From: a virus
Virus record (IMG/VR): IMGVR_UViG_3300047562_004050
Span: 1 to 34,766 of that record
Length of the DNA: 34,766 nt
Direction: 5' to 3' (one strand)
The translations under genes and the position numbers were made by a program. The notes beneath the pieces were generated by a model. That model saw only the letters and a list, made by a program, of their open reading frames with translations, searched no databases and was not told where the DNA came from. Position 1 is the first letter of the stretch; each line of letters begins with the position of its first letter. Shown piece by piece: positions 3,332 through 32,223 of this stretch.

Positions 3332-3751
3332 TTATTTTAACCATCCAATCTTTTCGCCTGCAGCGATTCTTCTCTCTGCTTCTTCTTTAGATCCTGGATA
3401 CCTTGTAGCCCAAGTAACAATAAGAGCAAAAGTAATAAGGAGATATAGCGTTGCCATGATATTACCCGTAGTAAGGAACATTACTACAAGAGAAGTGCTC
3501 ATAACTGCCACCATCAAATATTTTGCTTTTGTTGGATAAACTCTGTATGTAGACCAGTTTTTAATGAATGGTCCAAACTTTGGGTGATTCATAATCCAGT
3601 TATGAAACTTCTCGCTAGATTTTGCAAAACAGAATGTGGCTCCTAAGATTGGAGTACTCCAAGGTAGTCCTGGAATAAGTACACCAAGATATGCTACACC
3701 TAATAAAATAATTCCTAGCGTAAACCAAAACGCTTTTTTAATCTTACTCAT
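3332..3751 (-). CDS. DUF454 (YbaN-like) inner-membrane protein
   Basis: 139 residues, matching the usual length of the DUF454/YbaN family. The N-terminal segment [21 protein letters not shown] with the family's PGLP motif and the [29 protein letters not shown] block are diagnostic. Two more hydrophobic stretches (about 77-92 and 94-112) give a small polytopic membrane protein. The biochemical role of the family is not established. Its ATG overlaps the stop of the ALAS gene (ATGA), so it is translationally coupled to 5-aminolevulinate synthase. That tie makes a role in heme, precursor or iron handling worth considering, but this is inference only. Confidence 0.85.
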
Positions 3752-4941
3752 TTTAAAACCTTTCTCAATGCTTCAACTAACTCAACCATCATTACGTCGT
3801 CATGATAAGGCGTAGGAGCAATTCTTAATCTCTCAGTACCTACATCTACTGTTGGTGAGTTAATTGGTTGGATATAAATTCCATACTCGTTTAAAAGCTG
3901 ATCACTAGCAGCCTTACATTTAAATGCGTCATTAACCATAACCGGCACGATATGAGTACAAGCATTCGGATGTACTGGAATATTAGCTTCAGCCAACATA
4001 TTTTTTAATTTTATTGCGCGGTGTTGGTGTTTTTCTCGTAAGGAAGGATGGTCTCTGAGATATTTAATCGAGGCCAAAGCACCCGCACAAACAGCAGGAC
4101 TGATGGATGTTGTGAATATGAAGCCACTAGCAATAGTACGAATGGCATCGACAATAGTGCTATGAGCGCTAATATAGCCACCCTGTACACCATAAGCTTT
4201 ACCCAACGTCCCATTTATAATATCTATCCTGTCACCCAATCCTAAGTGTTCGCAATAACCAGCTCCGGTCTCTCCATACAATCCAACTGCGTGAACCTCA
4301 TCAATATATGTAATCGCGTTATATTTATCCGCCAACTCGCAAATTTCTAGAATAGGTGAAACGTCTCCATCCATAGAATAGACAGACTCGAAAACAATAC
4401 AAGGAACTTTTCCAGCAGCAGTTGCTGCTATTAAAGAGTCCTCTAGATCTTTCATGTTGTTGTGCTGGAATATGATTTTGCTAGCTTTACTATGATTAAT
4501 ACCAACAATCATAGAAGCATGGTTTTTACTATCAGAAATGAAGCAAATATCAGGAATAATTCTGCTTAAAGCAATAAGAGACCATTCATTAGCCACATAA
4601 GCGCTTGAAAATAAAAGAGCTGATTCTTTCTTATGAAGCTTAGCTAATTCTAATTCAAGTGTAACATGATAATGAGATGTACCACCAATATTACGAGTAC
4701 CACCAGATCCTGCACCAGTTTGATCTATTGCTGTGTGCATAGAGTCAATAACATGCTGGTTTTGACCCATACCTAGGTAATCATTTGAACACCAGTTTAC
4801 AATATTTTTTGGAGCATATTTTCCATACCAAATAGAGCGAGGAAAGTTCCCTCGCTCTCTAAGTATATCATTGAATACTCTGTAACGACCGTCTTTCTTA
4901 TAGTCGTTTAGAACATTTTCAAAATAGTGTAAGTGTTTCAT
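3748..4941 (-). CDS. hemA: 5-aminolevulinate synthase (Shemin/C4 pathway)
   Basis: 397 residues, the normal length for bacterial ALAS. It condenses glycine with succinyl-CoA to 5-aminolevulinate, the first committed step of tetrapyrrole synthesis in alphaproteobacteria. Motifs: [12 protein letters not shown] near the N-terminus, [13 protein letters not shown] (76-88), the PLP-binding [10 protein letters not shown] (Asp214, His217) and the Schiff-base lysine Lys248 in [14 protein letters not shown]. These distinguish ALAS from the related biotin and sphingolipid alpha-oxoamine synthases, especially GTRNIGGT and the [10 protein letters not shown] block. The ATG abuts the TAA of nrdA (TAAATG) and the stop overlaps the DUF454 start, so it is expressed with ribonucleotide reductase. 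Together with the heme oxygenase and bilin reductase farther along, it suggests that the phage drives flux from precursor to bilin. Confidence 0.93.
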
Positions 4942-15161: not shown

Positions 15162-15169
15162 TATTTATA
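15162..15169 (-). promoter_or_regulatory. T4-type late promoter (TATAAATA)
   Basis: An exact TATAAATA on the minus strand, 28 bases before the polyprotein ATG at 15134. Confidence 0.75.
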
Positions 15170-28828: not shown

Positions 28829-29461
28829 TTACTCCTCCTCTTTGGTCTTATATTGCCATTCGTCTGTATGTCCTACTGACCATTTTTGCGCGGTTTCAAC
28901 TTTATAATTTTGTGTACATACATTAAAGTCTGGTCTTGCAAGAGATTCTGGAGTCAAGGAGCTGTCACGCCATATGACTCTATTGTTTGGTTGGGCTGCG
29001 AACTGTCCATTGTCGAGCTTGATGACGTTAAAGGATTTGTGCTCGGGATCGTGCTCACTGAAATTGGTGTCAAGGGTGGAAGATTGAGCATGACAATTGT
29101 CGATTGTGAAGAGATATTCACCGTCGTGCATGACTCTATCTTTTCCAAAATAACTGCATCTGGACAAGAGTGGCTTTTTGATGACGGTAATATCGTAATC
29201 GAAGCAATCCCATAATTGAAGATTATCCAGAGGTAAATCGTCGTGATCAAGCTTCCACACAAAAGCAGATAAAGGAAGCTTATCGTATAAGGCGCCGTAG
29301 TCAGTGAGAAGAGTTTCAAAATACAAAGCCTTTCCTTGTATTGATTTCACACTGATCCAAATTCCAGGAGTGTATTCTCCGTGTCCTTTTTTCAAGTCGT
29401 AAAGGTATTCTTTGCGCACATAAACATGCACAGGTGGAAGGTTGTGTACTAAAAAAGCCAT
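28829..29461 (-). CDS. Hypothetical protein downstream of the bilin reductase
   Basis: 210 residues with no known motif: VHVYVRKEYLYDLKKGHGEYTPGIWISVKSIQG, then FVWKLDHDDLPLDNLQLWDCFDYD, then a beta-rich part and a charged KTKEEE end. It looks like a soluble mixed alpha/beta protein. The ATG overlaps the stop of the FDBR (TAATG), so it is made together with it. A link to bilin metabolism is possible from coupling alone; a general phage role is equally possible. Confidence 0.65.
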   Translation of the reverse strand: MAFLVHNLPPVHVYVRKEYLYDLKKGHGEYTPGIWISVKSIQGKALYFETLLTDYGALYDKLPLSAFVWKLDHDDLPLDNLQLWDCFDYDITVIKKPLLSRCSYFGKDRVMHDGEYLFTIDNCHAQSSTLDTNFSEHDPEHKSFNVIKLDNGQFAAQPNNRVIWRDSSLTPESLARPDFNVCTQNYKVETAQKWSVGHTDEWQYKTKEEE

Positions 29462-30144
29462 TAAATTTCCTCGAATAATACGTCATTAACGTAACGATCT
29501 TTATCTTGCTCTGAAATTCCCATAGCTAAAATAGATCTATGTAGATGTGGATTCATTTTTTGATTTATGCAATACTTATTTAAAACAGGTTTTGTATCTC
29601 TTTGAGAATTAAAAGCGTTATTTGTTAAGTTATCTAAGTAATAATCTAAAAGATTAGAAGTGACATTAATAAATTGCTCTAATTCTTCTTCTGTATTGAT
29701 ATTGCCAACAGCAATCATATCTTCAGAAAATATCTCTTTAGCCCAGTCTGGTAATTCTCTTGGTTTATTCCATTCTAAATTACGAGTTATTACATGCATG
29801 TAGTCATGATATGGATGAGGAAAACCGTGCAAAGGAGAATAGTCCATGAAAGAACCTGTAATCTTTTTAGGACCAGCTACAATATCAAAGCCTAAGATTG
29901 GTAACTCAATACAAGGTCTTGGAAACACGTTAACATGCATCAGCCATAGACCTTTTCCATCTTCTGGAACGATAGTCTTTAAGTGCGCTTTAGATACAGA
30001 AACAGATTGCCAGAACGTGTCAGTCCATCCTGGAAATCTCATGTCTTCAGTGTACTTTGGGTTATCGTATCTTGTAAAGCTCTCATCAAATCTTTTAGTT
30101 ATACTAGCAGCATACTCGTTTAATCTATTCCATAGTGGATGCAT
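29461..30144 (-). CDS. pcyX: Ferredoxin-dependent bilin reductase (PcyX/PebS/PcyA family)
   Basis: 227 residues, the normal FDBR size. The core LMHVNVFPRPCIELPILGFDIVAGPKKITGSFMDYSP is diagnostic: the FPR..(E/D)LPI.G.D.V strand pair followed by a strand ending in Asp101, equivalent to the proton-donating Asp of PcyA and PebS. KYCINQKMNPHLHRSIL near the C-terminus also fits. These enzymes reduce biliverdin with electrons from ferredoxin. PcyX, known from marine phages predicted to infect non-cyanobacterial hosts, makes phycoerythrobilin. I choose pcyX because of the alphaproteobacterial setting; PebS or PcyA specificity cannot be excluded by eye. It is in an early-type operon with gp33/gp59-like genes, one gap away from heme oxygenase. 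Confidence 0.87.
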   Translation of the reverse strand: MHPLWNRLNEYAASITKRFDESFTRYDNPKYTEDMRFPGWTDTFWQSVSVSKAHLKTIVPEDGKGLWLMHVNVFPRPCIELPILGFDIVAGPKKITGSFMDYSPLHGFPHPYHDYMHVITRNLEWNKPRELPDWAKEIFSEDMIAVGNINTEEELEQFINVTSNLLDYYLDNLTNNAFNSQRDTKPVLNKYCINQKMNPHLHRSILAMGISEQDKDRYVNDVLFEEI

Positions 30145-30487: not shown

Positions 30488-30515
30488 AATATATACTATC
30501 TGATAAAAATGTCAA
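30488..30515 (-). promoter_or_regulatory. Sigma70-type promoter of the FDBR-gp33-gp59 operon
   Basis: TTGACA (30515-30510), a 16-base spacer starting TTTTT, then TATATT (30493-30488). It overlaps the heme oxygenase stop and lies ~30 bases before the first small gene. The TTGACATTTTT start is shared with the promoter at 9809-9836. Confidence 0.7.
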
Positions 30516-31063
30516 TCCTTTTCTTGTGACAGTTCATCAAACAGTCTTGAAGCAAAATCAAAGCAAATTTTTGCTTCATCAGCCATTCCATCATGGAGTA
30601 GCAATCTAAATTCATCAATGAGGTATTGTTTATCTACGTCAAATTCGTACATCTTACCAGATCCTGGAATTTTTTTCTTAATGATCTGGCCACCATGTAA
30701 TTCACCAAAATGGCGAGTGTACATATGAGCTAACAACTTTTCGTTGTCGCCTTCGTCTTCTAAATCGTATATGTGAGAAACATAGTCAGCTACTGACTGA
30801 GGAAGATCTGTAGGTCTCTCGAAATTGTACATTCTTTCGAGTTCTTCTATGTCTTCTAAGATAAGATCAGCTCTTTTAATCGCTTCTAAATCTTCTGGAA
30901 TTTCAGTAGCATCTTCTAGAGCTTTATAATTGTAGTGCTGGCAAACTAAAAACGTGTAGTATTTGTGAGGGTCTATAGTACCTTTGATAAGGTCTCTCGC
31001 AAAAGCTCTTCTTTCAGCTGCTTGATGATGAGCCCAAGTGAGCTCTTTTAATTTGTTGCTCAT
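30512..31063 (-). CDS. hemO: Heme oxygenase
   Basis: 183 residues, the short bacterial size. It opens heme to biliverdin IX-alpha, CO and iron. The proximal heme ligand is His13 in LTWAHHQAAER (T...H..AE pattern). YYTFLVCQHYNYKALEDA is the conserved Y.(F/L)L..(Q/L)Y..Y.ALE helix. LLAHMYTRHFGELHGGQIIKKKIPG is the distal-helix signature with the glycine pairs that kink over heme. No membrane tail. Its ATG lies 33 bases after an exact TATAAATA, so it is probably expressed late, unlike the bilin reductase that follows. Confidence 0.92.
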   Translation of the reverse strand: MSNKLKELTWAHHQAAERRAFARDLIKGTIDPHKYYTFLVCQHYNYKALEDATEIPEDLEAIKRADLILEDIEELERMYNFERPTDLPQSVADYVSHIYDLEDEGDNEKLLAHMYTRHFGELHGGQIIKKKIPGSGKMYEFDVDKQYLIDEFRLLLHDGMADEAKICFDFASRLFDELSQEKD

Positions 31064-31157: not shown

Positions 31158-31553
31158 TTAGAAGTTAAATGTAGCAGTCATTGTGATTTCGCCACGCTCT
31201 GCAGCTTCGAAATCGTATGAAGTACCAAGTTCTAGCTCAAGAGCTGTAAGAGCAGCTGGAGCATAGGTCAATCCAAGAAGAATTTCTGGCTTAACGTCGA
31301 ACTGATTAGTTAGAGTAAAACCATCTGCTTTGCTCCATACGTCAAGCTCAATACCTGCTGTTGCGGTTAGACCGCTAACTAATGCTGGCGAATAGGCGAG
31401 TTCTGGAGTAGCGGTAAGAGTTGCAGTTTCTGCATCTACTTTGTATTCTGCAACTACTTCAGTATTTAGAGCAAGTCCTGCAATAGGAAGATCCATAGCT
31501 GAAGCTACGGTTGCTGACGCTAGAAGAGCAATTGCTGCGACTGTGAATTTCAT
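31158..31553 (-). CDS. Secreted outer-membrane beta-barrel-like protein
   Basis: 131 residues. A signal peptide (MKFTVAAIALLASATVASA) with an AxA site precedes a mature part of alternating strands (NTEVVAEYKVDAETATLTA, GIELDVWSKADGFTLTNQFD, ALELELGTSYDFEAAERGEI). It ends TMTATFNF, with terminal Phe as in the barrel-assembly signal of outer-membrane proteins. At ~110 mature residues it could form a small barrel of about eight strands. Phages rarely carry such a gene; blocking receptors or altering permeability are possibilities. It is followed by its own terminator. Confidence 0.7.
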   Translation of the reverse strand: MKFTVAAIALLASATVASAMDLPIAGLALNTEVVAEYKVDAETATLTATPELAYSPALVSGLTATAGIELDVWSKADGFTLTNQFDVKPEILLGLTYAPAALTALELELGTSYDFEAAERGEITMTATFNF

Positions 31554-31590: not shown

Positions 31591-31941
31591 AAAAAAGTGG
31601 GCCCGTTCTGTTTCTAGGTGGAACCCATACCCACCAGCATCATGCCGCTAGGGCGTAACCTGTAGGAGCAAAGTTATCGTTTGCATTTAGTTTAATTGAC
31701 CGATACGAGGTCATCCGGTAAACTCCACTCTATCTTCACACCTGTCGATCCTATGTCGACCCCATCAAAGATAATCTGTCTAAGTGGTTTTTCTCAGATC
31801 AACGCTCTAAGCCTATCTTTCCAAGAAACCAATTCAAAGATAAAGAGTGGAAAATTTCTTCGCCATTCCAGATTATCTATGGTGGAGTCGCCGGGCACTG
31901 CCCCCGGGTCCAGAATGTGTCCACGTCGCTTCAACGTTTAC
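31591..31941 (-). ncRNA. ssrA: Circularly permuted (two-piece) tmRNA
   Basis: The acceptor piece comes first (about 31941-31880). It has a T-arm CCGGG-GGCAGTG-CCCGG, acceptor strand CGACTCC, discriminator A and an encoded CCA ending at 31880. An intervening segment (31879-31764) is closed by a perfect 10-bp pairing AGATAATCTG/CAGATTATCT. The coding piece starts at 31763 with GGGGTCG, which pairs with CGACTCC to give a 7-bp acceptor stem with a G3-U wobble, the alanyl-tRNA synthetase identity mark. The tag frame 31684-31640 reads ANDNFAPTGYALAA then TGA. Near the 3' end CAGAA and CCAC can pair with UUCUG and GUGG of the acceptor piece. A T-run at 31596-31591 ends it. It would rescue stalled ribosomes with SmpB. 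This layout is that of alphaproteobacterial tmRNA. Confidence 0.92.
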
Positions 31942-31947
31942 TAGTTA

Positions 31948-31975
31948 TATATAAACCATCTGGAGAGAATGTCAA
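31948..31975 (-). promoter_or_regulatory. Sigma70-type promoter of the tmRNA
   Basis: TTGACA (31975-31970), a 16-base spacer, then TATATA (31953-31948). Start near 31941, just ahead of the acceptor piece. Confidence 0.65.
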
Positions 31976-32013
31976 CAATTATTTTTGCGCAGAATGTAAT
32001 TGTATCTTTTATG

Positions 32014-32223
32014 TCACATTGCTTTCTTAGAGAGTTGTCTTGCATCCCAAGCCTGTCTGAAAGCGAAATCACAATACTCAGCTTTTTCGTTGTTTCCCCA
32101 GAGTCTTGAAAAGTATGAGTCGTATATTTTCATTACTTCATTATCCGTCCAGTTCTCTGGTATGAGCTGACCTTTTACATAAAAGTAATATCTATTAGCT
32201 TCTCTACGTTGAAAATAAGTCAC
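32014..32223 (-). CDS. Small protein with GTG start behind a hairpin-masked ribosome site
   Basis: 69 residues from GTG 32223: TYFQRREANRYYFYVKGQLI, NWTDNEVMKIYDSYFSRLWG, FAFRQAWDARQLSKKAM. Not recognised; aromatic-rich and soluble. AGAGGAGG at ideal spacing decides the start over a longer GTG frame at 32286. That ribosome site is inside the 3' arm of a strong hairpin, so translation probably depends on where the transcript begins. Confidence 0.65.
   Translation of the reverse strand: MTYFQRREANRYYFYVKGQLIPENWTDNEVMKIYDSYFSRLWGNNEKAEYCDFAFRQAWDARQLSKKAM

Follow-up and report, generated by a model that had tools for sequence, protein, structure and literature searches.

The DNA analysed here (the window) is an IMG/VR virus record of 34,766 bases that carries on its minus strand, at 31596-31942, a complete circularly permuted (two-piece) tmRNA of the alphaproteobacterial type. 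The Rfam model RF01849 (alpha_tmRNA) matches with 108.3 bits at 31979-31596 (E 7e-29; gathering threshold 50), RF04321 (tmRNA_permuted) matches with 101.9 bits at 31942-31640 (gathering threshold 47), and ARAGORN calls a permuted tmRNA on the same strand with the tag ANDNFAPTGYALAA*. An earlier note on this DNA had described a phage-encoded two-piece tmRNA and proposed a search with the alphaproteobacterial covariance model, which, at more than twice its gathering threshold, bears the description out. In the precursor, the acceptor piece comes first, followed by a spacer between CCA and the mature 5′ end, and then by the coding piece (all on the minus strand). The acceptor (tRNA-like 3′) piece with its leader occupies 31880-31942, as placed by Rfam alignments, coordinates and covariation, with a presumptive exact 5′ end; it contains the T arm (31891-31907), the acceptor 3′ strand CGACTCC (31884-31890) and the encoded ACCA (31880-31883). 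The internal transcribed spacer of 116 nt (31764-31879) is closed by a helix, AGAUAAUCUG/CAGAUUAUCU (31869-31878 with 31769-31778), that lengthens the acceptor stem in the precursor. The coding (mRNA-like) piece, assigned by ARAGORN, Rfam and coordinates, spans 31596-31763, begins with the mature 5′ acceptor strand GGGGUCG (DNA GGGGTCG, 31757-31763) and includes the tag reading frame ANDNFAPTGYALAA with its UGA stop (31640-31684). All seven pairs of the acceptor stem GGGGUCG/CGACUCC form, G3-U70 among them, as do all five pairs of the T stem; the encoded CCA, the 7-bp acceptor stem with its G3-U wobble and the tag could thus all be located letter by letter, as the note had said.

The window tmRNA shares with alphaproteobacterial ssrA (RF01849, with Caulobacter vibrioides as the control match) the layout, the acceptor stem, the type of T-loop and the ANDN/ALAA ends of the tag. 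The T-loop GGCAGTG, earlier taken to be unusual, matches the RF01849 consensus GGCgGUA and is normal for the family. The proposal that the tag has an altered protease recognition found no support, since the tag keeps the alphaproteobacterial ANDN...ALAA form (RF01849 consensus tag, ANDNYAPVALAA) and ends in a ClpXP-type ALAA. The differences lie elsewhere: the spacer is 116 nt long versus about 28 in the consensus, and the tag is two residues longer in its middle. At the 3′ end (31591-31635, minus strand), where the end of the RF01849 model is matched, a conserved stem GUGGGU/GCCCAC is followed by UUUUUU. Both elements of the terminator claimed in the note are therefore present, but the candidate (GUGGG...CCCAC and U6) folds no more stably than shuffled sequence (z -0.43) and coincides in part with the conserved 3′ end of the tmRNA itself, which leaves a terminator plausible but weak. 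Directly after the tmRNA lies a gene for a 131-aa protein (31158-31553) with a signal-peptide-like start and no family match; signal-peptide starts also follow the tmRNA in several relatives.

The window encodes a UvsX-like recombinase, a gp41-type helicase, gp32, ThyX and both ribonucleotide reductase subunits, a set that marks it as T4-like. Its closest UvsX, that of phage C48C1, is only 66% identical, so no near named relative is known; the top gp41 match is Caulobacter phage Cr30. No permuted tmRNA was found in C48C1 or Cr30. The window also encodes 5-aminolevulinate synthase (3748-4941; TIGR01821, 562 bits), ferredoxin-dependent bilin reductase (29461-30144) and heme oxygenase (30512-31063), a gene set also on record from freshwater phages such as CB_2, whose proposed host is Methylocystis (PMC11480375). 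SmpB was found in none of 15 tmRNA-bearing or related records, several of which are partial and not all of which have a demonstrated tmRNA, while controls were positive in 10 of 14 genomes, suggesting that the RNA must use host proteins.

A two-piece tmRNA in a phage is as such already known: such RNAs occur in Methylophilales phage Melnitz and dozens of other phages, mostly aquatic, and make up 53 of the 133 distinct phage tmRNA structures in a 2022 catalogue (PMC9004378). Melnitz and the pelagimyophages resemble the window in being T4-like aquatic phages with a permuted alpha_tmRNA (PMC9004378), and Melnitz has the same type of promoter (TTGACA-17-TATAAATA, see below); its tag, ANDNYVPVDYALAA, is unlike ANDNFAPTGYALAA, and the neighbouring genes differ. 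Just downstream of the Melnitz tmRNA (L208:1929-2346), Rfam places a glutamine riboswitch (2354-2402), which by this position may serve the next gene and not, as published, ssrA; a search for a glutamine riboswitch near the tmRNA of the window came out negative. Permuted tmRNAs are also present in Pelagibacter phage HTVC008M (RF04321, 90.6 bits) and in the Sinorhizobium jumbo phage Phosso (469 kb; RF04321, 113.3 bits; tag ANDNVSTKVALAA), where the gene lies in a gap without any annotated feature (PV764938.1:349596-350198; L206). Blastn with the whole tmRNA matched few named phages; Rhodobacter phage RcSimone-Hastad is a further match at the BLAST level only.

To follow the gene beyond named phages we used two sets of relatives: 80 IMG/VR loci encoding a PstS relative, not chosen by tag, and IMG/VR loci matching a tag-region pattern (at least 119 stretches), in which the ANDN..AP part of the tags is fixed by the search. 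Many of these contigs are related to one another, so the counts below are not independent. ARAGORN called tmRNAs in 20 of the 80 PstS loci, and Rfam found further ones among the loci on which it was run. A parser asking for 7/7 acceptor pairs, G3-U and 5/5 T-stem pairs passed 69 of 71 phage tmRNAs and none of 355 shuffles. Among 41 selected distinct phage rows, picked by a pairing-rewarding parser and not including tmRNAs whose T stem has another register, the acceptor and T stems were fully paired in all 41, double changes occurred in 8 of the 12 stem pairs, the stem covariation score was 0.554 (0.099 when shuffled and at most 0.094 when slid), and the alanine identity pair G3-U70 was invariant. 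The spacer, which ranges from 18 to 296 nt among phage tmRNAs, is closed by a helix that averages 10.4 bp over the 71 phage tmRNAs, versus 6.0 bp in shuffled spacers. In the PstS set the tags start with AN.N in every case and end in LAA in nearly all. One relative has an unusual arrangement (L041:1196-2945), in which a composite promoter and what looks like the 5′ start of a tmRNA (to GGACTCGG) come before a 397-aa ORF, followed by a complete tmRNA; judged by eye, the ORF resembles a homing endonuclease, and an endonuclease insertion at the tmRNA gene is possible.

The note had also given the tmRNA its own promoter, and one is indeed present at 31946-31975 (minus strand): a -35 box TTGACA (31970-31975), 16 bp, and the octamer TATATATA (31946-31953), a -10 box that overlaps a T4 late-promoter-like motif. 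It is the sole such composite in the window, where 0.02 would be expected by chance. The upstream regions of phage tmRNAs align on TTGACA, 17 bp and TATAAATA, the octamer of most relatives, of which the window has a variant with a shorter spacer; TTGAC is kept 16-18 nt from the octamer. Read as motifs, the general form TTGACA-17-TATAWATA is a sigma70 -35 box joined to a T4 late-promoter octamer. A 14-letter composite score of at least 11 was reached by 76% of 68 unique tmRNA upstream regions versus 2.5% of random stretches, and on the same contigs TATAAATA was accompanied by a -35 box in 27 of 32 cases upstream of ARAGORN tmRNAs but in only 10 of 149 upstream of ORFs. TATAWATA was present in 26 of 28 dereplicated tmRNA promoters, as opposed to 8 of 94 other TTGAC-16/18-TATA sites (Fisher p 2e-17). 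The composite also led to tmRNAs away from ARAGORN calls: at ten loci (L006, L007, L010, L014, L019, L021, L035, L050, L184 and L147) Rfam identified the gene, while five loci without a composite site, scanned alongside, gave no tmRNA by Rfam. Three leftover composite sites (L101, L182 and L056) precede gp32-like genes. A description of this promoter was absent from the literature found, in a search of a small set of open-access papers; what appears to be new here is thus the placing of tmRNAs behind a composite promoter in the window phage and its relatives.

In one reading of this promoter, the tmRNA would be made only early, by host sigma70 alone, and its use would lie in recycling host proteins or ribosomes when infection begins. 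This has been proposed for Melnitz, whose authors put an early promoter in front of ssrA and make the case for an early role (PMC9004378). In tmRNA promoters, a complete TTGACA, 16-18 bp away, and a TGn-like extension ahead of the octamer fit such a reading. The -10 element speaks against it. Sigma70 prefers T at position 6 of the octamer, and the other dereplicated TTGAC-16/18-TATA sites before ORFs mostly have it, in the form TATANT (66 of 94), as against 1 of 28 tmRNA sites; the window site itself was absent from a generic promoter scan because the -10 rule of that scan demands this T. Positions 6-8 are instead kept as A, T, A in the relatives, although they were not used in picking the sites, and positions 7-8 match the late octamer. 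The window has seven TATAAATA boxes in all (at 15162, 19683, 23663, 27649, 31096, 34142 on the minus strand and 34146 on the plus strand), each located some 27-67 nt ahead of a gene start and without a preceding TTGACW; by motif and placement these are T4-type late promoters, which indicates that this phage uses such promoters. It may, on the other hand, be that TATAAATA is simply accepted by the host sigma factors of these bacteria. We consider early-only synthesis possible but rather doubtful, and favour a tmRNA promoter that would be read both early and late in infection.

A further element lies upstream of the promoter in one lineage. A palindrome, GTGAYA-N4-TRTCAC, was found with at most two mismatches in 16 of 79 phage tmRNAs versus 1.3% of random stretches, at a nearly constant distance, 108-112 nt ahead of the T arm and roughly 65 nt ahead of the octamer. 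It is present in L002, L085, L187, L145, L046, L149 and others; in the window only the first half-site is kept (GTGACATAAAAGATAC, 32002-32017, minus strand, 110 nt upstream of the T arm). It may be a regulator site; its half-site spacing or orientation differs from those of CRP, FNR and Pho boxes, and we therefore name no regulator for it.

That the gene was taken from a host, as the note had supposed, is plausible from its family membership, but no particular donor emerged from a search of 84,980 species genomes by tag pattern. The pattern NDN(F/Y)APx(G/A)xALAA occurred there in one contig only (NHBR02000136.1; L201), which belongs to a Bacteroidota MAG (Muricauda sp. TMED12), encodes a permuted alpha-type tmRNA and, from its ORF translations, is probably misbinned T4-like phage DNA. 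Since ssrA is a common integration site, with an acceptor end that mobile elements often bring along, and short ssrA acceptor fragments are found on alphaproteobacterial plasmids, the locus could in principle be a captured host fragment, left for instance by integration into ssrA and no longer used. We strongly disfavour this explanation and give it very little probability: the gene is complete, with tag and stop intact, its stems show compensatory changes, its promoter is conserved, and tmRNAs of this kind lie beside phage genes in many contigs. A modified or decoy tmRNA, which would retag proteins for a different degradation fate or compete with the host tmRNA, has a precedent in the CDS-less tmRNA of phage DS6A, which inhibits endogenous tmRNA in E. 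coli (PMC11915505), and could draw on the few relatives with altered tag ends (such as ANSNYAPMERMVA in L041) and on the near absence of the phage tag pattern from the sampled bacterial genomes, its single occurrence being in the phage-like contig. The window tag nevertheless keeps ANDN...ALAA, as does the RF01849 consensus, and ALAA also closes the tags of most relatives, though contigs of the pattern set were chosen by the ANDN..AP part; we regard this alternative as improbable.

The explanation that we hold, with good though not complete confidence, is that of a functional phage-borne ssrA of the alphaproteobacterial permuted family, acting in host-dependent ribosome rescue from a promoter read early and late; what is known of the family and its conservation argue for a working rescue RNA, and the promoter motifs for dual use. 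Host tRNA-processing enzymes would cut the precursor, both ends of which would be presented by the closing helix of the spacer. The two-piece RNA would then be charged with alanine by host AlaRS and bound by host SmpB, and would free ribosomes that had stalled on broken mRNAs; the ANDN...ALAA tag added in the process would be degradable, with host proteases acting on the tagged products. Early in infection the promoter would be read by host sigma70-RNA polymerase and later, from the same start, by RNA polymerase with the phage late sigma (gp55-type), so that the rescue RNA would be topped up throughout infection, in difference to the early-only proposal for Melnitz (PMC9004378). Ribosome recycling is the likeliest role of the phage tmRNA. 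In T4-infected E. coli, host SsrA remains stable as tRNAs are broken down, and its suggested role there is to keep ribosomes available (PMC9697503); this agrees with a demand for rescue for as long as the infection lasts.

In practice, the composite promoter is a marker for this gene, having led to ten tmRNA genes missed by ARAGORN. Whether the arrangement is general, that is, whether T4-like phages of alphaproteobacteria and their relatives keep a tmRNA, and on a few contigs gene 32 as well, under a composite sigma70/late promoter, a single start for host and phage sigma factors that would supply rescue RNA for the whole infection, with the palindrome adding a regulator in one lineage, we judge to be an even call. 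On the question of what a ribosome-rescue RNA is for in a virus, the composite promoter offers a concrete, testable prediction: the RNA would be synthesised both early and late.
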